From a virus: 40,905 bases of DNA. Below the pieces are notes generated by a model. The model saw only the letters and a program-made list of their open reading frames with translations. It was not told the origin of the DNA and searched no databases. The stretch is taken from positions 1-40,905 of IMG/VR virus record IMGVR_UViG_3300027854_000001. One strand, written 5' to 3'. Positions 1-40,796 of the stretch are shown in pieces. Position 1 is the stretch's first letter, and each line of letters starts with the position of its first letter. Position numbers and translations under genes: made by a program.

Positions 1-127
1 CCCGGTCTTCAAAACCGGCTGATTATCGTGTTTTCAATAGGTTACGGGTGGTAGTTGTTTGCTGAAGTGTGCGCCGTTTGCTGTGGTTTGCAGCGATTAT
101 GCGATGGAATATGCGATGGTTTTTTAG
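1..127. repeat. Left copy of 127-bp terminal direct repeat
   Basis: Bases 1-127 are identical to bases 40779-40905. The repeat begins inside a tRNA-like anticodon arm and ends just before a hairpin, with no packaging-type features of its own. A length of 127 equals a k-mer size commonly used by assemblers, so the simplest reading is the overlap of a circular or circularly permuted molecule. A true short direct terminal repeat is possible but less likely. The unique genome would be 40778 bp. Confidence 0.95.
99..119 (+). other. Candidate integrase arm-type sites (P' arm), tandem pair
   Basis: ATGCGATGG occurs at 99-107 and again at 111-119, a 12-bp step, about 80-100 bp right of the attP anticodon-arm core (same bases at 40877-40885 and 40889-40897). 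A near copy lies on the other side of the core at 40726. Further reverse-complement copies occur at 13866-13874 in the control region and at 40603-40611 inside the integrase gene, so the word is not confined to attP. Confidence 0.45.
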
Positions 128-668: not shown

Positions 669-845
669 TCACAACCCAAAAAACTTTAACGTGCGGTTGC
701 CAATCAACGGCTCACCTGTGTTGAGGTACACGGCAGCAGACATCAGAATGTTATAGGCTGTGCATTTCTCTCTGTCGAAACCATCAACCTTGCAATCGAA
801 GAACAACGTATCAGCTTTTTGAGAAATCAGCTTGATTGCTTCCAT
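669..845 (-). CDS. Hypothetical 58-residue protein with its own promoter
   Basis: The ATG at 845 is preceded by GGAGG (854-858) eight bases upstream, an excellent ribosome site; an upstream in-frame GTG at 866 would bury that site and is less likely. The protein begins MEAIKLISQKADT and ends KFFGL. It has two Cys residues, an acidic N-terminal half, and no signal peptide, membrane segment or recognisable helix-turn-helix. The family is not recognised. It is separated from the replication operon by a strong promoter and an operator cluster, so it is probably expressed independently, perhaps in the lysogen. The gene at 231-452 could be on the same transcript. Confidence 0.7.
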   Translation of the reverse strand: MEAIKLISQKADTLFFDCKVDGFDREKCTAYNILMSAAVYLNTGEPLIGNRTLKFFGL

Positions 846-867
846 GTTGTTTGCCTCCGTGTTCACG

Positions 868-900
868 GTTAAACTTTAACATGTGCACAGGTGGTGTCAA
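868..900 (-). promoter_or_regulatory. Leftward promoter for 669-845 with palindrome over -10
   Basis: On the minus strand: TTGACA (900-895), a 16-bp spacer, TAAAGT (878-873), with TGT directly before it as an extended -10. The start point would be near 866, giving a 20-nt leader holding GGAGG. A perfect dyad GTTAAA-C-TTTAAC (868-880) covers the -10, a likely repressor site. A TGGTTAC box (917-911) lies exactly 10 bp upstream of the -35. The same arrangement recurs at 36729-36773. Confidence 0.65.
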
Positions 901-910
901 GTGGTCATTG

Positions 911-966
911 GTAACCACACGTGGGTTATTTACGTCTGTAACCAACGTTGGTTACTCCTGTAACCA
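911..966. promoter_or_regulatory. Operator cluster of GTAACCA/TGGTTAC half-sites
   Basis: GTAACCA occurs at 911-917, 938-944 and 960-966. An 18-bp perfect palindrome, GTAACCAAC/GTTGGTTAC, fills 938-955. A looser dyad, TAACC-N7-GGTTA, fills 912-928. The dyad centres are about 26 bp apart. The nearest half-site stands 10 bp upstream of the -35 of the promoter at 868-900, a position suited to an activator. The cluster slightly overlaps the end of the nuclease gene. The cognate protein is not known. Confidence 0.65.
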
Positions 967-4262: not shown

Positions 4263-4529
4263 CTAGGCTTTCGCCGGAAGCTTCGCAGCCAACAGACCCT
4301 TCCGCTTGAAGCGATTGAGATACACTCCAATCACTGAGGCCGCAACGTTCTTCGTCTTGAGGCTCTTTCCCAAGCGTCCACGGAGTTGCTTCGCCGTGAC
4401 CTTCCGCATACGCTTGATGGTCTTGAGAATCAACCGGCCCTGACCGGTCACCTTCCCAAGTTCCTTCACACCGGCAGAGGTGATAACAAATATAGCACCA
4501 CGCCGTTTGATTCGCTGCTTTTTGCTCAT
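4263..4529 (-). CDS. Small basic winged-helix-like protein
   Basis: 88 residues, strongly basic, with KKQRIKRR near the N-terminus and a C-terminal half (residues about 38-85) containing helix-turn-helix-like segments around VTAKQLRGRL and AASVIGVYLNRFKRKGLL, which resemble a recognition helix and wing. AAGGAG lies 9 bases upstream of the ATG at 4529. It probably binds nucleic acid, as a regulator or histone-like factor. No family could be named. It is co-directional with the replication genes. Confidence 0.75.
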   Translation of the reverse strand: MSKKQRIKRRGAIFVITSAGVKELGKVTGQGRLILKTIKRMRKVTAKQLRGRLGKSLKTKNVAASVIGVYLNRFKRKGLLAAKLPAKA

Positions 4530-4541
4530 GTATTCGTCTCC

Positions 4542-4760
4542 TTACGGCAAGATGCCGTGTTTTACTTTCTTTCGTGCGGCTTGGGTCAAAACCGCCTGCT
4601 TGCAACCACATCCCAAGATCAAACATCGGTCATGGATAATCATGCCCCGACTATGTGTAGTCAACGGGTGCTTGCAATCACCACAAAAAGAATCATCCAA
4701 ACCGTCAATCCTTGCTTCGCTGAGAAAGTCAACCACCGGCTCTGTTGCTAAATAATCCAT
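4542..4760 (-). CDS. Small Cys-rich (zinc-ribbon-like) protein
   Basis: 72 residues from ATG 4760; in-frame TTG codons at 4766 (GGGG 9 bases upstream) and 4781 are alternatives, so the start is uncertain. The centre has C-x2-C (FCGDCKHPL), a His, and then DRC-x4-CGC, which could ligate one zinc ion. The C-terminus is basic (AARKKVKHG). Function is unknown. A perfect hairpin (4782-4799) sits just upstream and may modulate its translation. Confidence 0.65.
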   Translation of the reverse strand: MDYLATEPVVDFLSEARIDGLDDSFCGDCKHPLTTHSRGMIIHDRCLILGCGCKQAVLTQAARKKVKHGILP

Positions 4761-5121: not shown

Positions 5122-5960
5122 TTCCCATTCCTCTCTAGCACAGCGCGGGGCATCTGAATTGATTGCGGGTTGGCACCCATGATGACCTCTGCATACGTGC
5201 CGTAATGGTCAAGGTAACTTGACCCGCGTGCACCGATGATCTTCTTAACAACCATCTCTGAGGCTTCACGCATCTCGCGTGATTCCTGCAACACCATGGC
5301 CTGATGCAAATGCCCCATCAGGTACAACTGCGAATCGGCCTGATTCATAAACTTCATTAGGCCATTCGCAATAGAGCCTTTGGTCTGCCCACCGCCGCTG
5401 CCGTGGAACATCGAAATCTTGAAGGGCTTATGGTCATCAAACCGTATGTCAATGTGTTGTTTGCCAGGTGAATACGGAAGCATGAGCACAGTTGCAATAG
5501 ACTTCCCAAGATCGCCAAACGTGGGAATGCTTCTGCGTTCATGATTTCCACCTACATAGCCAAGCACCCGGTGACGCAACGGGGCAACAAGTTTGCAGAA
5601 CTCCCACAACTCTTCTTGTGGATCACCTACCTGCTCAAACGGTGACCCCTTGCTTTGTGCATGGCCCGCATCCACCATGTCACCACCAAAAACCACATAG
5701 CGATTAGGTTTTGACAACACCCAAGCAATATCATCCACAAGCCGCGATACCTTGCAACGCTTGTGCCCATACTGCACATCGGTAATTTGCAGCAGTTCAA
5801 GTGTGTCAATATCCACACCGGCAAAATCCCATGCTAGGTAACGGGCCTGCCCACCAATCACCATGCTTTGTTGGAGCGTTGGTTCGTAATCCTGCAACTG
5901 CGATTGAACCTCAGCGAGAAAGTTTAGGGTTGTTGTTTCGTCGTGCAACTGTTTAGCCAT
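5100..5960 (-). CDS. Calcineurin-like metallophosphoesterase
   Basis: 286 residues from ATG 5960, chosen because AAAAGG lies 7 bases upstream and the longer frame runs through the excisionase-like gene. Metal-binding motifs are in order: TDVQYGH, GGDMVD, GNHERR, a lone His in FHGSGG, and GHLHQ. In the first motif the usual D-x-H is D-x-Q. Such enzymes hydrolyse phosphodiesters or phosphomonoesters using two metals. Phage relatives near replication genes are often annotated as DNA repair exonuclease-like or phosphatases; the substrate here is unknown. It overlaps the excisionase-like gene by 37 bp, so the two are co-transcribed. Confidence 0.9.
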   Translation of the reverse strand: MAKQLHDETTTLNFLAEVQSQLQDYEPTLQQSMVIGGQARYLAWDFAGVDIDTLELLQITDVQYGHKRCKVSRLVDDIAWVLSKPNRYVVFGGDMVDAGHAQSKGSPFEQVGDPQEELWEFCKLVAPLRHRVLGYVGGNHERRSIPTFGDLGKSIATVLMLPYSPGKQHIDIRFDDHKPFKISMFHGSGGGQTKGSIANGLMKFMNQADSQLYLMGHLHQAMVLQESREMREASEMVVKKIIGARGSSYLDHYGTYAEVIMGANPQSIQMPRAVLERNGKWELTLK

Positions 5961-6127
5961 TGTTCTACCTTTTCTTTTTGGAATCTGACAACAGCCCCAA
6001 TACGCACACACGGCAATGGGGATTCGCGCACGTCGCCTGACCGTGTGCGGTCCTTTGCTAACTCGTACACCTGCCACTTGCTCACACGCAGCAAGTTAGC
6101 AACCTCACTTGCCGTCAGGATTTCCAC
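5924..6127 (-). CDS. Excisionase-like HTH protein (AlpA/MerR-type, HTH_17)
   Basis: 67 residues; GTG start at 6127 with GGGGTG upstream. The sequence LTASEVANLLRVSKWQVYEL followed by a basic wing and VRFQKEKVEQWL is the classic excisionase-family winged helix-turn-helix. These small proteins bend DNA at attP and favour excision, or regulate early genes. Because the genome has a tyrosine integrase, a role as the directionality factor is likely, although it sits 7 kb from attP within the replication operon rather than beside the integrase. It overlaps both neighbours. Confidence 0.8.
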   Translation of the reverse strand: MEILTASEVANLLRVSKWQVYELAKDRTRSGDVRESPLPCVRIGAVVRFQKEKVEQWLNSCTTKQQP

Positions 6128-13063: not shown

Positions 13064-13107
13064 ACTTATCTCCTTGTGTTATTTATTGGTGAAAACCGGA
13101 ACTGCTT

Positions 13108-13202
13108 GAACATTGAAAAATGTTCTAGGCTGCGAGTGTTCTTACCTCAACGACTAGGGAATTTGTCAGGTGACGCTGACAACTCAGCCCTACAACTGAG
13201 GT
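13108..13202 (-). promoter_or_regulatory. Structured 5' leader of the early operon
   Basis: Three inverted repeats lie between the probable promoter and the first early gene: GAACATT/AATGTTC (13108-13125, seven pairs, four-base loop), TTGTCAG/CTGACAA (13163-13182, seven pairs), and an outer pair ACCTCA/TGAGGT (13144-13149 with 13197-13202) enclosing the second. On the minus-strand transcript they would form a folded leader of about 190 nt. The TGTCA/TGACA words may also be operator half-sites. No known riboswitch class is recognised. Confidence 0.45.
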
Positions 13203-13259
13203 GTCTATCCTGTGCCTAAAACATCATCGAAGTGGCTAACGGGGAATTGAAATGAGTGG

Positions 13260-13288
13260 ATAATAAGTCTGTGTAATATTGCTCACAA
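13260..13288 (-). promoter_or_regulatory. Probable early leftward promoter
   Basis: On the minus strand: TTGTGA (13288-13283), a 17-bp spacer, TATTAT (13265-13260), matching 4/6 and 5/6 of the sigma-70 consensus. It points at the early operon whose first GTG is at 13063 and would give a leader of about 190 nt. No other candidate closer to the gene was as good. Confidence 0.5.
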
Positions 13289-13546
13289 TGGCACACACGT
13301 GGGCACAGGTAGGAACAACGTCACGTCTGGTAACACATCAAGTAATGGTTACGGAAGTGTTAAAGATTGCGTGTAAATATTACATAGTGAGGCAGGTCGA
13401 CCTAGTAAGGGAGGTATAGATGTGTAGATGTAGGGGAGAATAGTAGTAAAGCCTATAGATTGTTAGGGTTAGCAACAATACAGTCATGAATACATGTGTA
13501 TAGGTAGTTGTAAAGTTGAGGTGACTGATGGAAGTGCTTTAGAATC

Positions 13547-13563
13547 ATATATATATATATATA
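13547..13563. repeat. AT dinucleotide run
   Basis: Eight uninterrupted AT units in the middle of the control region, followed by further TATA-rich sequence to about 13600. It could be a DNA-unwinding segment or simply low-complexity sequence. Confidence 0.6.
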
Positions 13564-13637
13564 CAATAACCTCCCTCCCTTGTTTCTATACATATATACA
13601 TACGGTACATAAGAGAGGCCCCATCGACCTTGCTTGA

Positions 13638-13654
13638 TTGACAAAAAGTGTCAA
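13638..13654. promoter_or_regulatory. Operator candidate 1 (TGACA-N5-TGTCA)
   Basis: TTGACA-AAAAG-TGTCAA is a perfect six-base inverted repeat with a five-base spacer. The same class of site, with the same spacing, recurs 123 bp to the right. The left half is also a consensus -35, so binding here could block a promoter. The cognate regulator is not identified. Confidence 0.6.
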
Positions 13655-13760
13655 TGTGGCTGAAAAGCACCACTCCCACGTCAAATGGTAACAACTCTTT
13701 AGTAATCAATGAGATGGCCCTTTTGTTCGTACTTATAGAGAGACGGCACAACCTTGCCCG

Positions 13761-13777
13761 GTGACAATATTTGTCAC
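13761..13777. promoter_or_regulatory. Operator candidate 2 (TGACA-N5-TGTCA)
   Basis: GTGACA-ATATT-TGTCAC, a perfect six-base inverted repeat with a five-base spacer, of the same class as operator 1. Two sites about 12 helical turns apart would suit cooperative binding with looping. This spacing argument is inference. Confidence 0.6.
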
Positions 13778-13807
13778 TCGCTAATTGATTACCAAAGTTT
13801 GTGCTCC

Positions 13808-13968
13808 CCGGTTTGGAAAACCGGAGTGTGGTTGTAAGTTGTTGATTCTGCGTGCGTTGTAAACACCATCGCATAGTCTATCGCACATTAATCAAATCCC
13901 CCGCACCACGCTCAACGCGAGACGTTGAGGCCAGATGTTGCCTGGCAGATCGCTTGATGGTTGCAACC
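13808..13968. promoter_or_regulatory. Array of four hairpins/palindromes
   Basis: In order: CCGGTTT/AAACCGG (13808-13824, three-base loop), CTCAACG/CGTTGAG (13911-13929, five-base loop), GCCAG/CTGGC (13930-13946, seven-base loop) and the palindrome GGTTGCAACC (13959-13968). They lie upstream of the rightward late operon and would be in its leader if it starts near 13800. Such an array could act as an RNA antitermination element (as put sites do in HK022), as protein-binding sites, or as an origin. The first hairpin resembles the tRNA-like stem of attP but is not part of a tRNA. Confidence 0.45.
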
Positions 13969-13975
13969 CCATCAC

Positions 13976-14005
13976 AAGGTAAGCGAAAAGGTAAGCGAAA
14001 AGGTA
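13976..14005. repeat. 12-bp tandem repeat, 2.5 copies
   Basis: AAGGTAAGCGAA occurs twice in tandem (13976-13987, 13988-13999) with a partial third copy to 14005. It lies between the hairpin array and the first rightward gene. It would encode Gly-Lys-Arg-Lys repeats only in a frame with no other sign of coding. Confidence 0.7.
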
Positions 14006-14113
14006 CTGCTTTTTATGGGTATTTTTGGCCGGGGGAGGCCCCCCAAGTTACCTAAGTAATCGGCCGGGCATGGTCCAAAAATTTATGGGTTGCCGGTAAG
14101 GATGGACTAACAA

Positions 14114-33404: not shown

Positions 33405-35224
33405 TGAGCGCAGCAGATACTTCAATGCCGGAAACTGACCCGGTACCACAGGCACCCCCATCAAGCAATCTTGGGAATGTTATGGTGCAGGGTTCTTCAG
33501 GTCCAACGCAAGTCAACACCAATGCACCTGACTTTAATCAGGACAAATCCGTACCTAGTGAATCGCAGGCACCACAACCAACTAGCCGGTTAAAGTCTGT
33601 GCTTGCGGCTGTGGCAAACGTAGCGGAGACCGGGCTTTCTGGTATTCCCGACAAAGGAAGGCCAAGCTTCGTTACTGGTTTAGGTTCGGGAGCTAGGGCT
33701 GAACAAGCCGCGCAAGCTAATCAACAGGCCGTTAAATTTCGTGACCTCGATTCGCAACTCAGGATCGCCCAGATGCACAACGATGACCTGCGTTTACAAA
33801 ACCAGACTCAGGCGCAGCAAAATGCCAATGATAAAGAATGGCGGGATCGTCACGATTGGCTTGAAGATAAGGGATACGACGATACCACCATTCCAAATCA
33901 CGCGGATGCCGTAACCAACCACATGCAGGCAATGACCGCTGCAAACGGCTCTGTCTCAGTTACGCCGGGGTCTTCGGTCAATCCTGATGGGAACACGATC
34001 CATATTCCGACAGACACACAAGAGACTCGTGATGCACAGAAGAAATTGTACGATACGTTTTCTCCTGCTTATGGTTTGGGATCAAGACCTGAGAATCAAG
34101 ACTTTGTGCCGGGTAAGCAGATTGATATTTTGCAACACTTAATGCAAGGTAAGAATCCCGATGGCTCCCCAATCAACCATGACAAGTTGCCGGGGATGAT
34201 TGCTTCCTATCAAACGCAGAGGGACACTCTAGCGCAGAAGGGCAGCACATCTCCCGATGTGTCGAAGCAACTCGATAACACAATCGGTATTCTGAAAGCG
34301 CAGCAAGATTACTTGGACAAACATGCGGCGAGTGTAAAAGCACAGGATAAACAATCTCAGCTTGATGTGGAAAATAATCCTGAGAATCAGGCTGCTGCTG
34401 CACGCGGGGCCGCATTGAAAACAGGTGCCGAAGCTGCTGCGAAGAATAAAGCAGATCAGGCCACGATGGGGAATCAGAACCTTACCGGGTCTGCTTTCCT
34501 CGCGACTCTACCAACGCAGCGTGCATCTACGGTGCAGGCCATTGGTGAAGGCCGCATGGAGTTGACCCCATCAATGCTTCGCTCGAAAGACGGTCAGGCA
34601 CTCGCGCAGCAAGTTGCTACCGCGTACCCTGATTTCGATCAGAGCAAAGCTCAGTCTTACTTCAAGACGCGACAGGATTTCACTTCGGGTAAGACCTCGA
34701 CAGCTATAAACTCTTACAACACAGCCATAGCACACCTTGGCACAATGTACGATCACGTCTCCGGTACAAACTCATTGCAGCTTAACAACCCGGCTGCTGA
34801 TGTGCATAGGCAGTTAGATTTGGATAAACAACTGGTTTCGACAGAGCTTGCCAAGGCTGTTTCTAACGGGCAGATGACTGAAGGTGAGAAGAATCAGATT
34901 TTAAGTTCCGTCTCTGGTTACACCGTGGGCAGCTACCAATCGCGAATCAAGGAAGCAGTGCAGTTGCTCAATGGCAAGCTGGAATCTTATCAACAGCAGT
35001 GGAATAACGGCGCACCTCCGGGCGCTGTCTCGAAAGTGCGTATCTTGTCACCGCAAAGTGAAGCCACCATTGCGCGAATCAACGGGCAGGCTGCTCCTAA
35101 TCAACAAGGGCAGACTGCTCCGAATCAACAAGGGCAGGGTTCACAGGGTTCGCAATTCAGCCACGTGAGTGCCAGCGGGAAATTCGGATGGAATGGAACG
35201 CAGTGGGTTCCGACAGGGAGATAA
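33404..35224 (+). CDS. Internal virion (ejection-type) protein 2
   Basis: 606 residues; ATG 33404 shares a base with the preceding TAA (TAATG). The N-terminus is Pro/Ser-rich, then long Gln/Ala/Asp-rich helices (QAVKFRDLDSQLRIAQMHND), and a C-terminal low-complexity part with a duplicated APNQQGQ motif followed by a short aromatic end (FGWNGTQWVPTGR). This is typical of podovirus ejection proteins delivered into the host on infection. No enzymatic motif was found. Confidence 0.75.
   Translation: MSAADTSMPETDPVPQAPPSSNLGNVMVQGSSGPTQVNTNAPDFNQDKSVPSESQAPQPTSRLKSVLAAVANVAETGLSGIPDKGRPSFVTGLGSGARAEQAAQANQQAVKFRDLDSQLRIAQMHNDDLRLQNQTQAQQNANDKEWRDRHDWLEDKGYDDTTIPNHADAVTNHMQAMTAANGSVSVTPGSSVNPDGNTIHIPTDTQETRDAQKKLYDTFSPAYGLGSRPENQDFVPGKQIDILQHLMQGKNPDGSPINHDKLPGMIASYQTQRDTLAQKGSTSPDVSKQLDNTIGILKAQQDYLDKHAASVKAQDKQSQLDVENNPENQAAAARGAALKTGAEAAAKNKADQATMGNQNLTGSAFLATLPTQRASTVQAIGEGRMELTPSMLRSKDGQALAQQVATAYPDFDQSKAQSYFKTRQDFTSGKTSTAINSYNTAIAHLGTMYDHVSGTNSLQLNNPAADVHRQLDLDKQLVSTELAKAVSNGQMTEGEKNQILSSVSGYTVGSYQSRIKEAVQLLNGKLESYQQQWNNGAPPGAVSKVRILSPQSEATIARINGQAAPNQQGQTAPNQQGQGSQGSQFSHVSASGKFGWNGTQWVPTGR
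35093..35140 (+). repeat. 24-bp tandem duplication in ejection protein gene
   Basis: Two adjacent 24-bp units (35093-35116 and 35117-35140) encode APNQQGQT and APNQQGQG. In-frame expansions of this kind vary between related phages. Confidence 0.75.
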
Positions 35225-35230
35225 TTTCAA

Positions 35231-36613
35231 ATGTCAACAGCAGTTCAAATTCCATCTCCGCCCGATGGTAGCGGCATTGTTGCTCAACCATCAGGCGCCC
35301 CGCCTCCGCCCGATGGTAGCGGCATTGTTGCTCAACCATCAGGTGCAATTCCACCTCCGCCCGATGGTAGCGGCATCGTCGCTCAGTCTACACAGCAACC
35401 TCAAACAACTCAGCCGGGGTTTTTAGATCGGCTTGGAGTAGGCGGAATCCTTGATTCCGTCAAACAAGCAATGGCTTCTGGTGTACAGGCTCACGAAGCC
35501 GCAAGCAAACAATTCGACAACGGGGATTATGCAGGTGCATTTAAAACTTTAGGTAAGGCCCTTGTCATTGATCCTGTGACCGCCGAACTAAAGAACACAG
35601 GCGCGGGATACGTGTATCACGCCACTAAAGGCTTCGTGAACTCCGCGCAAGATGTTGCTCACGGCAACTATGGGCAGGGCTTCACCGATCTGGTACACAC
35701 GGCTTCGCCCTTTCCATCGGCGGTTGCCGAAGACACGGTGAATCAGAACTATCCGGGTCTGGCAGGTGACGCTGTGTTGGCTGCGACGGCTGCTTTAGGT
35801 GCCAAAGCATCGTTAGCGGAAGGCGGCGCGGCTCCTGAAATTGCAGAAGCAACACCAAAGGCAGGGCCTCTGCGACAAATCTGGCAGGGTGAAAAGGTCG
35901 CTCAGGCTCCCGCTAAGGCTGCTTTACAGGGCGGCGCTCAAGCGTCGGCTGCCGATGCCGGGGTAGCCGGAACAGCCGATACAGCCGGAAGTGTACGCAC
36001 ACTTCTCGACAACCCAATTGACGCCTTATCTAAGAACGAACGTGCCGCTTACGACACCATTAACAAGGCTGCCGGAACAGACCTAAAGGCGCTGTACGAT
36101 TACAGGACGCAACTGCAAGACGCTCTTGATGACCCTACAAACATTGGGCAGAAAGCGAATTTGCAATCGGAATTGAAAACCACGGAAGGCCAGATTGCCG
36201 ATGGGGAGAAGTTAGCTACGAGCAATGGGGTTGATCCTGACACTCTCAATCAGGCCAAAGGCATGACGCAGCAACGTTATGCGATGGAAGACGTTGCTAA
36301 AAAACTCTTCAGCAATGAAAGTGTGGTTAGAGGCAACATGGCTCACGGTGCTCCTGAGACAATCAACATCGACAGCGCTCTGCGACAGGTTGAAAACCTC
36401 GACAAGCCTTCAAGGTTCGCTCCCAGAGGCGCACCGACACGTTTAGAACAGGCTTTTGGTGAGGATGGGGCACAGGCTCTGAAGCAATCCCTGTACGACG
36501 CGCAGAAGGCAGGCCAGACAGCACTGACGAAGCAAGTCTGGGCTAAGCGCATCGCAAGTGTCACAGGTGCGGCAAGCGCTACTTACGAGGCTCTAAAGGG
36601 TATTTTTCGATGA
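35231..36613 (+). CDS. Internal virion (ejection-type) protein 3 with Pro-rich N-terminal repeats
   Basis: 460 residues; ATG 35231. Starts with three repeats of a PPPDGSGIVAQPSG unit (residues about 9-52), then an Ala/Gly/Gln-rich helical body (for example LLDNPIDALSKNERAAYDTI and KANLQSELKTTEGQIADGE) and a basic C-terminus (KRIASVTGAASATYEALKG). It completes the block of ejection-type genes. The repeats could bind a partner protein in the host. Its 3' end overlaps an antisense microprotein gene. Confidence 0.75.
   Translation: MSTAVQIPSPPDGSGIVAQPSGAPPPPDGSGIVAQPSGAIPPPPDGSGIVAQSTQQPQTTQPGFLDRLGVGGILDSVKQAMASGVQAHEAASKQFDNGDYAGAFKTLGKALVIDPVTAELKNTGAGYVYHATKGFVNSAQDVAHGNYGQGFTDLVHTASPFPSAVAEDTVNQNYPGLAGDAVLAATAALGAKASLAEGGAAPEIAEATPKAGPLRQIWQGEKVAQAPAKAALQGGAQASAADAGVAGTADTAGSVRTLLDNPIDALSKNERAAYDTINKAAGTDLKALYDYRTQLQDALDDPTNIGQKANLQSELKTTEGQIADGEKLATSNGVDPDTLNQAKGMTQQRYAMEDVAKKLFSNESVVRGNMAHGAPETINIDSALRQVENLDKPSRFAPRGAPTRLEQAFGEDGAQALKQSLYDAQKAGQTALTKQVWAKRIASVTGAASATYEALKGIFR
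35256..35388 (+). repeat. Three in-frame Pro-rich coding repeats
   Basis: A 40-bp core beginning CTCCGCCCGATGGTAGCGG is identical at 35256-35295 and 35304-35343; a third, diverged and shorter copy lies at 35355-35386. Periods are 48 and 51 bp, so reading frame is kept. Each encodes PPPDGSGIVAQ. Confidence 0.85.
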
Positions 36614-36665
36614 AGTACAGCAGAAATAAAACGACCAGTGACGGAATCAAGATGTAAGGATTCAT
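36579..36665 (-). CDS. Antisense membrane microprotein (28 residues)
   Basis: The ATG at 36665 has AGGAGG with a good spacer, the strongest ribosome site in this part of the genome. The product MNPYILIPSLVVLFLLYFI continues as a short basic tail ending PRK: one transmembrane segment. An in-frame ATG at 36722, at the predicted transcription start, would give a 47-residue form with an extra hydrophobic N-terminus (MKNILIVMLLTNVAGG); a leaderless start there is possible. It runs against the late operon and overlaps the end of ejection protein 3. The dedicated promoter at 36729-36756 supports expression. Its role (for example superinfection exclusion) is unknown. Confidence 0.65.
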   Translation of the reverse strand: MNPYILIPSLVVLFLLYFIEKYPLEPRK

Positions 36666-36728
36666 GGTTGTTTGTCCTCCTGCGACGTTGGTTAACAACA
36701 TCACAATCAATATGTTTTTCATGTTCAA

Positions 36729-36786: not shown

Positions 36787-36996
36787 ATGGAGCACCACGA
36801 ACGCAGGGAACACAATTATCAGATGGCTCAAGACATCGGCTATATCAAAGGGATGTTAGAGGGGCTGTGCGGGCCTGAAGGCCGCGTAACGAAGATTGAG
36901 GCTGCACAGACGCGGCATTGGTGGTTAACGGTTGCTATTGGCCCTGCACTAGCAATTCTCCATCAGGTGCTCAGGAAGGTAGGAGTCAATGTTTAA
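36787..36996 (+). CDS. Small membrane protein (holin candidate)
   Basis: 69 residues; ATG 36787 with AGG upstream. A polar, helical N-terminus (HHERREHNYQMAQDIGYIKG) and one hydrophobic C-terminal segment (WWLTVAIGPALAILHQVL). Single-TM proteins of this shape occur in many phage lysis or tail regions. It could be a holin or a fibre-region membrane protein; it overlaps the next gene by 8 bp. Confidence 0.6.
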   Translation: MEHHERREHNYQMAQDIGYIKGMLEGLCGPEGRVTKIEAAQTRHWWLTVAIGPALAILHQVLRKVGVNV

Positions 36997-39415: not shown

Positions 39416-39576
39416 TGTTTGAGAAGATTGAAAAATACGTCAACCTGTTGGTGAAAATAGAGGCCCATGCAATCCTGATGATCCTCACAGGTGTCTTCAT
39501 GTGTCTTCACGGCAACAAAGAAGAAGGTCAGCTAATCATCGGTGCTGGCCTTGCCGTCTTCAAAGGGCACTCTTAA
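39415..39576 (+). CDS. Small membrane protein (holin-like)
   Basis: 53 residues; ATG 39415 overlaps the fibre stop (TAATG). Contains a hydrophobic segment (AHAILMILTGVFMCLHG) and a second weakly hydrophobic one (QLIIGAGLAVFKGHS). The pattern is that of short phage proteins at the end of fibre operons, sometimes annotated as holins. Its 3' end overlaps the convergent integrase gene by 17 bp. Confidence 0.65.
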   Translation: MFEKIEKYVNLLVKIEAHAILMILTGVFMCLHGNKEEGQLIIGAGLAVFKGHS

Positions 39577-40678
39577 CCTTTTCTTCTAACAACCTCATTC
39601 CCTTCAAAGCTTCTTCGGGCATTGCACTCTCATAGTGTTGCTGCGTGACCTGTGTCGTACTGTGGCGCAGCACATCGCGGCCGGCGTTGCTGTTCCCTGT
39701 CAGCGCCCGCAACATCGTCCCAACTCCGCGTCTACCTGCATGGTAGCCCTTCCACGGCAGCCCTGCTTCTACCAGGCAGGGCCGTATCGTTCTAACAGCA
39801 ACGTCCTTCAGGTCTAGGGGGTTGCCTCTCTCGTTCGGAAAGACCCACAAGGCAGAAGTGCTCTTGCCCCGCCACAGCCCCAAAAACAGCCTCACAGGAG
39901 CGATTAGGGGCACAGGCGCGGCACTCTTCAGGGTCTTGGGGGTCACGATATGCCCGCGCACACATGCCCGTCTAACGTGAATAGCATGGTCATCAATATC
40001 ACCCCATTGTAAACCTGCAATCTCACCTTTCCGCAACCCTGCAAAATAGGATAGAGCCATGATGAGTTGACACATTGGATGGTCAACAAGGGCTGAGATG
40101 ACATTCTCAATCTCTTCCAAAGTGTACGATTCTGTCTCACCGTTCGGTAGGGTCTTCCCCAACACCATCGCATCACGGATGGGGTTTGTTTCGCAAGACC
40201 CTATAGCAACCGCATGAGCAAACAAGGCGGAAGCCAGAAACTTTACATGCTGCACGGTACGCGGCCTTAATCTCTTCGCTAGTTGGGTTATCAAAAGAGA
40301 GAAGACCGATGTCTTGTAATTGCTCAATAACTGCTGTGCAAAATGCGTCTTTAGGTGTTGATTCCATATTTGCGTGTACCCCTGCACGGTTGATGGTTTG
40401 AGGTTGGTGGTTATGAACGGCAAATACACCGTATCCCAAAATTCAACCACGGTAAGGCTCTTGACCTGTGGTTGTTCTGTGTTGACCGTTCGCATGAAGT
40501 CTTCGCACAATTCCCGCACTTTCTTAGCGGTTGGTGCTCCGCAGCCTGCGTTGCGATCTTTGCAGCACAGCATGTGCGATTTCTGCTTGCGGGTGCCGTC
40601 CACCATCGCATAGTATCTGACGTGGAAGGCGTTGCTGGCTTCGTAAATGTAACCGCGTTGGTGCCTCATGCAACCCAT
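39560..40678 (-). CDS. int: Tyrosine-family integrase
   Basis: 372 residues from ATG 40678 (an in-frame ATG at 40669 and a TTG at 40687 are alternatives; no clear ribosome site). The N-terminal region has a Cys-containing, probably arm-binding, domain (SHMLCCKDRNAGCG) and the core-binding SAM-like domain follows. The catalytic domain has the first Arg in AGLRKGEIAGL, the His/Arg in YHAGRRGVGT, and the His and nucleophile Tyr in LRHSTTQVTQQHYE. It would catalyse integration at the selC-type attP about 75 bp upstream. Convergent with the late operon. Confidence 0.92.
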   Translation of the reverse strand: MGCMRHQRGYIYEASNAFHVRYYAMVDGTRKQKSHMLCCKDRNAGCGAPTAKKVRELCEDFMRTVNTEQPQVKSLTVVEFWDTVYLPFITTNLKPSTVQGYTQIWNQHLKTHFAQQLLSNYKTSVFSLLITQLAKRLRPRTVQHVKFLASALFAHAVAIGSCETNPIRDAMVLGKTLPNGETESYTLEEIENVISALVDHPMCQLIMALSYFAGLRKGEIAGLQWGDIDDHAIHVRRACVRGHIVTPKTLKSAAPVPLIAPVRLFLGLWRGKSTSALWVFPNERGNPLDLKDVAVRTIRPCLVEAGLPWKGYHAGRRGVGTMLRALTGNSNAGRDVLRHSTTQVTQQHYESAMPEEALKGMRLLEEKVKSAL

Positions 40679-40706
40679 CGTAAGCAACTACCAGAAGCAA
40701 CACAAG

Positions 40707-40720
40707 AGCACGAAAGTGCT
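40707..40720 (+). other. Small hairpin between integrase and attP
   Basis: AGCAC and GTGCT form a five-pair stem closed by a GAAA tetraloop. It lies in the 60-bp space between the integrase start and the tRNA-Sec half. No U-tract follows on either strand. It could be part of the integrase leader or an integrase/excisionase binding site. Confidence 0.3.
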
Positions 40721-40751: not shown

Positions 40752-40796
40752 GGAAGCGAAGGGAATCCGGTTGGTTCCCCCGGTCTTCAAAACCGG
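40752..40796 (+). other. attP: 5' half of a selenocysteine tRNA gene
   Basis: Read on the plus strand, the segment folds as the 5' half of a bacterial tRNA-Sec: an 8-nt acceptor strand GGAAGCGA (40752-40759), a long D-stem GGGAATC/GGTTCCC (40761-40767 with 40773-40779) closed by the minimal loop CGGTT, and an anticodon arm CCGGT-CTTCAAA-ACCGG (40780-40796) whose loop carries the Sec anticodon TCA (40787-40789). A six- or seven-pair D-stem with a tiny loop is characteristic of tRNA-Sec. No variable arm, T arm or matching 3' acceptor strand follows, so this is half a gene. It lies about 75 bp upstream of the integrase start, as expected of an attachment site. Inference: integration occurs in the anticodon region of host selC and the phage supplies the new 5' half. 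The anticodon-arm portion also occurs at 2-18. Confidence 0.8.

Follow-up and report, generated by a model that had tools for sequence, protein, structure and literature searches.

In phage lambda, the early protein CII activates a few dispersed promoters (pI, pRE and paQ), that of the integrase included, through sites around the -35 hexamer, and the cI message, which serves a lysogeny function, is transcribed as a leaderless message from PRM, an activator-dependent promoter. Regulons built on a shared operator, as well as leaderless genes for lysogeny, are familiar arrangements in phages. In mycobacteriophages, a short operator, the stoperator, is present at several intergenic places of the temperate phage genome, as outlined in PMC9283540.

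The locus analysed here appears to hold a phage regulon of an ordinary type, whose operator has apparently not been described before. The window, i.e. the whole stretch of 40,905 bp that was analysed, is a circular viral record with an end overlap of 127 bp, in which a polymerase A, helicase and primase block lies on the minus strand, the structural genes lie on the plus strand and a tyrosine integrase is encoded. An earlier note on this DNA had described two minus-strand promoters, here named P1 (917-866) and P2 (36773-36722), with the same TGGTTAC box, the same 10-bp gap to the -35, the same 16-bp spacer and a TGT extended -10. This layout was found to be correct to the base, with all of these elements present at both promoters. 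The distance of about 5 kb between them on the circle was confirmed by the circularity of the record and its end overlap, and the perfect 18-bp palindrome reported upstream of P1 is present at 938-955 (GTAACCAACGTTGGTTAC). P1 and P2 are the sole sigma-70-like sites in their own stretches (one each; shuffled sequences gave 0.6 and 0.5). The features are listed below, together with two further promoters, P3 (4831-4760) and Pint (40717-40669); two relatives of the window are hereafter named G001 and G002.

P1, 866..917, minus strand: TGGTTAC at 917-911, 10 bp, TTGACA at 900-895, 16 bp, TGT-TAAAGT at 878-873, 6 bp, GTG at 866
P1 core, minus strand: imperfect AC-N4-GA centred on -42.5
Array, 938..966, no strand assigned: three 7-bp half-sites in alternating orientation, 11 bp apart
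Array dyads: palindrome GTAACCA-ACGT-TGGTTAC at 938-955 and perfect dyad TGGTTAC-TCCT-GTAACCA at 949-966
Small ORF behind P1, 669..866, minus strand: start at GTG 866 (leaderless) or at ATG 845 after GGAGGCAAACAAC
P2, 36722..36784, minus strand: TGATTAC-CTGT-TGGTTACTTTCGT; TGGTTAC at 36773-36767, 10 bp, TTGACT at 36756-36751, 16 bp
P2, downstream part, minus strand: TGT-TACACT at 36734-36729, 6 bp, ATG at 36722; counterpart in G001 at 1567-1630
Small protein behind P2, 36579..36722, minus strand: 47 aa from ATG 36722, with a hydrophobic stretch
P3, 4760..4831, minus strand: GGTTAC at 4831-4826, inverted box ACGAAAGT at 4806-4799, 4 bp, TTGCTA, 17 bp, TACGAT, 5 bp, ATG at 4760
Small Cys-rich protein behind P3, 4542..4760, minus strand: 49% identical to its G001 counterpart
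Winged-helix-like protein behind P3 (4263 protein), 4263..4529, minus strand: basic, 88 aa, candidate regulator
Pint, 40669..40717, minus strand: ACTTTCGT at 40717-40710, 4 bp, TTGTGT, 17 bp, TACGAT, 7 bp, ATG at 40669
Tyrosine integrase gene, 39560..40687, minus strand: ORF from TTG 40687, likely start at ATG 40669

A family match was looked for with the ORF at 669..866 and none was obtained; the gene behind P2 has an alternative start, a second ATG after GGAGG, which gives 28 aa. The array overlaps the stop codon of a nuclease-like ORF (952-1383), and the fourth box copy of the P1 cluster lies at 960-966. An inverted repeat with 17-bp arms (94%) lies at 583-616 of the window; CCACGTGTGCACATGT of this repeat matches the P1 spacer (879-894) in 15 of 16 bases and is possibly another operator.

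TGGTTAC was found 18 times in the window, against 4.7 expected. The coding copies numbered 13 versus 7.5 with shuffled codons (13 or more in 6 of 200 shuffles) and the noncoding ones 4 versus 0.6 expected; outside the listed ORFs the word was present only at 911, 938, 949, 13346 and 36767, with a further copy, at 960, where an ORF ends. Since codon usage accounts for about half of the 13 coding copies, taking all 18 as sites was dropped. The 14 promoter-like sites of the window make up 91 pairs and, as a 7-mer or longer was common at one offset in 10 of 2635 within-genome promoter pairs, about 0.35 such pairs are expected here. The sharing of a 7-mer at the same offset by two promoter-like sites is not significant and is weak evidence alone; hence, it was not retained as proof. 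The weight is carried by the four copies in 911-966, whose start positions fall within 49 bp (p ~2e-5 if 18 positions are placed at random), and by the relatives. The palindrome GTAACCAACGTTGGTTAC, which is peculiar to the window within the viral collection (viral_contigs), was also dropped as the operator, since the dyad at 949-966 and an AC-N4-GT core suit the relatives better. The copy at 13346 lies in a stretch of about 1 kb between the early and late blocks (13070-14110) that has an AT run and no convincing genes, and is presumably the main early/late control region.

The closest relative, G001, is colinear with the window (polymerase 68%, capsid 94% and integrase 66% identical), G002 has the replication block in common with it (polymerase 41% identical), and 13 further records, several of which are fragments or near copies of each other and hence do not amount to 13 independent controls, have structural genes in common with it. 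The window and these 15 relatives are the 16 records compared; of the 18 loci found, L036-L039 were left out (two partial, two distant). When viral_contigs was queried with the integrase, polymerase, nuclease or 4263 protein, no relatives other than G001 or G002 were retrieved, no close relatives were found among cultured phages, and no host was found by scanning genome_contigs. In G001, the translation of L014 14417-14700 (G001 34417-34700) resembles a read-through tRNA gene; ARAGORN calls none.

The P2 sequence of the window, TGATTACCTGTTGGTTACTTTCGTTATG-TTGACT-N16-TACACT-TTGAAC-ATGAAAAACATA, corresponds to TGGTTACCTGCGTGGTTACTTTCGTAAG-TTGCAC-N16-TATGAT-TTGAAC-ATGAAAAACATA in G001, where TGTGTTA and TTTGAACATGAAAAACATA are identical and TGGTTAC is doubled, the second copy lying closer to the -35 by one base. 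Identity of the divergently placed neighbour (36787-36996) to its G001 counterpart is as low as 35%, over 37 aa. Behind P2, the two phages have genes that differ after a common MKNIL start, the product being the 47-aa protein in the window and, by eye, an exported-looking protein of 94 aa in G001, the only record of viral_contigs with the promoter-start sequence. The same promoter and MKNIL start are thus followed by different genes at L013 1628-1912 and at 36579-36722 of the window, and the P2 site, opposite the late genes, is a possible cargo-exchange site. At the same place in G003 (L019, 10759, minus strand), behind the homologue of 35231-36613, a leaderless-type promoter without the box lies on the opposite strand and drives a short hydrophobic start, MKVLII.

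At the P1 position of G001 (39290) and G002 (25526), a promoter was found behind the nuclease-like gene, its -10 being separated from the start codon by 6 nt. It has no TGGTTAC array but one GTAACC, about 70-75 bp or 95-100 bp upstream of the start. Hence, the expectation of the earlier note that close relatives keeping the promoters would also keep the box proved right for P2 in G001, with its doubled box, and wrong for the P1 array in G001 and G002. Downstream of the G001 promoter come a small ORF and then the integrase, and the box of this promoter, ATGGTACTTTCGTGCCC, is similar to the Pint box of the window, ATAGCACTTTCGTGCTC; therefore, the promoter fits Pint at least as well as P1. The putative site ACTTTCGT is present at Pint in the window and at this promoter in G001. 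CCGGTCTTCAAAACCGG, present at the ends of the record (window 1-18, equal to 40779-40796) and some 110 bp away from the start of the integrase, is likely the attP core; it resembles the anticodon arm of a selenocysteine tRNA. No tRNA gene was called in the window.

The shorter word GGTTAC was present in all nine promoter regions of the window, G001 and G002 (15 copies versus 1.2 expected) and is the commonest 6-mer there, although the Pint copy lies inside a gene and was discounted and three of the regions had been chosen for the box. Among the six regions not chosen for the box, five had GGTTAC within 140 bp upstream (7 copies versus 0.64 expected, P ~0.0002); at the starts of ordinary ORFs (at least 100 aa) the count was 17 of 217. 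No copy was found within 140 bp upstream of Pint.

A second element, ACNTTCGT, lies 4 bp upstream of the TTG of the -35 at P2 and Pint of the window, at P1 of G001 and at P3 of G002; it was found at 3 bp at P2 of G001 and inverted at 4 bp at P3 of the window, and P1 of the window lacks it and has AC-CAAT-GA in its place. The offset of 4 was also observed at a doubtful site of G002 (41350), before a 29-aa frame, probably by chance. When AC-NTTC-GT was placed relative to the TTG of promoters with a start codon 5-7 nt behind, five sites were obtained at offset 4 and two at the 15 other offsets together, these two including P2 of G001 (offset 3) and one more among the 16 records. ACNTTCGT occurred within 45 bp of GGTTAC seven times in the window, G001 and G002 (1.36 expected, P 0.0001), all seven pairings being at P1, P2 or P3 regions, versus 1 of 70 sites in the other 13 records (1.5 expected). 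At P2 both elements overlap (GGTTACTTTCGT) and are not independent there. The composite element is restricted to phages with the 4263 gene.

Taking the start codon as +1, AC-N4-GT cores (GA at P1) are centred between -41.5 and -44.5 at seven of the nine promoters; no core was found at -42 at P3 of G001 or P1 of G002. Of the six promoters that carry ACNTTCGT or its inverse, five have a poor -35, in which 3-4 of 6 bases match; P2 and P1 of the window have 5 and 6 matches, respectively, and promoters without the core have 5 or 6 of 6. The tetrads of lambda CII sites (TTGC-N6-TTGC around the -35) were found in none of the nine promoter regions. The elements, their placing and their recurrence at promoters in three phages were computed on the same sequences where the elements had been found, after they had been seen, and only G001 and G002 share them with the window, so that few evolutionary events are counted. 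On this comparison, the reading of a regulon with a shared operator on few promoters is supported and enlarged. The earlier note had proposed a small regulon of accessory genes, independent of the early and late operons. Its small size stands, with a shared box at few promoters, P2 kept in G001 and GGTTAC recurring, but the integrase is included and the genes are hence not only accessory. The independence was given up, because the same elements are found at Pint and at P3, before the 4263 block that leads to the polymerase.

A start codon follows the -10 by 5-7 nt at all nine promoters, a spacing that was itself a selection criterion for several of them. This spacing suggests that the messages are probably leaderless or nearly so. 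Throughout the 16 records, a 6-nt gap between -10 and start codon was found in 10 of 100 promoter-start pairs with gaps of 0-40, versus about 2.2 for each other gap. The best case is P3, where the alignment of the window and G001 proteins begins in both at the Met right behind the -10. P1 of the window and some promoters of G011 and G015 have an ATG led by a Shine-Dalgarno sequence within 25 nt, and these messages may have only very short leaders. GGAGGCAACNATG comes immediately after several promoters of G015 (L060-L064) and G011 (L054-L055), which gives leaders of only about 10-15 nt made up of Shine-Dalgarno and start.

A regulator of these promoters should be encoded by the window, G001 and G002. 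Of the three proteins put forward as regulators in the earlier note (4903, 4263 and 5924), only the 4263 protein is present in both relatives and it is therefore favoured; the 4903 and 5924 proteins gave no tblastn match in the 15 relatives (E 1e-4). The 4263 profile matches only the window, G001 and G002 among the 16 records, and in all three the gene is located behind P3, directly before the 3459 gene, whose product, also common to the three phages, is a second candidate regulator. The 4263 protein was modelled as a small winged helix with medium confidence (pLDDT 77); a fold search with this model gave only weak matches, none in PDB below E 0.2, and the protein has no match in Pfam. The 5924 protein (5924-6127) matches excisionase-type HTH_17. 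None of the ORFs scanned was recognisable as a CI-like repressor.

Taken together, the sequence comparisons make it somewhat probable that the window and its two relatives possess a small set of sigma-70 promoters with a common operator, a phage-encoded activator and leaderless messages. The common operator would consist of GGTTAC half-sites plus the AC-NTTC-GT core about 4 bp upstream of the -35. A phage DNA-binding protein, most likely the 4263 protein from the P3 block, would bind it as a dimer or in tandem, contact RNA polymerase from about -42 and raise expression of the integrase, the small genes behind P1 and P2 and its own block, and the extra half-sites of the P1 array would load several dimers. 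The messages would begin at the start codon or next to it. We infer activation rather than repression, as well as the identity of the regulator and the transcription starts. Activation is considered about twice as likely as repression, because the core occupies the position of class II activator sites and the -35 is poor at five of the six promoters with the core, as expected if a bound activator replaces the -35 contacts.

Nevertheless, the box might be the operator of a phage repressor that would keep this set of promoters off in the prophage or turn them down late, with the P1 array serving cooperative binding or roadblocking. P1 and P2, with a good -35 and an extended -10, would be strong without help and fit repression equally well, a second ACTTTCGT spans the -10 of P3 in G002 and suits repression there, and cooperative repressors usually have alternating half-sites at an 11-bp spacing. 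This explanation is rather unlikely; most cores lie upstream of the -35, not over the promoter, next to poor -35 hexamers, and the scanned ORFs provided no CI-like repressor. It is improbable that two ordinary sigma-70 promoters merely share a common word of the window by chance. TGGTTAC is indeed frequent in the window, the expected number of same-offset 7-mers is not negligible (0.35), and G001 has no genome-wide excess (14 versus 12 for the reversed word), but the cluster of four copies, the conservation of P2 and the recurrence at other promoters argue against it.

Two other binding proteins were considered. Many bacterial activators typically bind a short dyad near -42, and the phages might merely use the control of a host regulator. 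This is very improbable: the 13 related records, some of them with the same leaderless promoter type, lack the composite element (GGTTAC is absent from all eight such promoters), and the element goes with the phage early block. These arguments are weak, since hosts may differ. The least probable explanation is binding of an excisionase/Cox-like protein, coupling the integration state to the promoters. Tandem half-sites suit such proteins, the HTH_17 match of the 5924 protein is of the excisionase type, and the presumed att region, where the ends of the record meet, lies between P1 and Pint. However, none of the 15 relatives has a 5924 homologue, though G001 and G002 carry the elements, and the att region is remote from both P2 and P3.

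A literature search for TGGTTAC with phage and promoter returned nothing, and ACTTTCGT was not named as a phage operator in the title or the start of the abstract among the matches listed. With the activator reading, a likeness between two promoters that was seen by eye becomes an operator model that names a candidate regulator, and a concrete and cheap test is offered of how a group of uncultured phages links integration to the expression of small accessory genes. If it is true, the box could serve to locate the cargo genes of related phages where homology is of no help.

Like the mycobacteriophage stoperators, as these are outlined in that report, the element described here would be a short repeated operator in a temperate phage genome. 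Stoperators are there described as asymmetric, genome-wide and bound by the immunity repressor, whereas here the sites are few and tied to promoters and no repressor was recognised; many oriented sites across the genome were not found, the noncoding copies being few and the coding ones partly due to codon usage. Class II activator promoters (CRP/FNR type, and lambda CI at PRM) resemble those of the window in a core at -41.5 to -44.5, mostly beside a poor -35, and differ from them in that AC-NTTC-GT with GGTTAC half-sites and a candidate regulator are found here. As in the case of lambda cI and PRM, leaderless messages would arise from activator-dependent promoters, but several accessory and integration genes of uncultured phages are concerned. 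A further likeness is to the lambda CII regulon, in which, as in the model proposed here, an early phage protein serves few dispersed promoters including that of the integrase, although CII sites (TTGC-N6-TTGC) lie astride the -35 and the 4263 protein is without a Pfam match. We tentatively suggest, as a rather unlikely possibility, that in these uncultured temperate phages the 4263 protein represents a so far undescribed family of winged-helix activators and is their counterpart of CII, with one composite operator near -42 that turns on a leaderless regulon made up of the integrase, its own block and exchangeable cargo, in which the promoter and the protein start are kept while the cargo changes.
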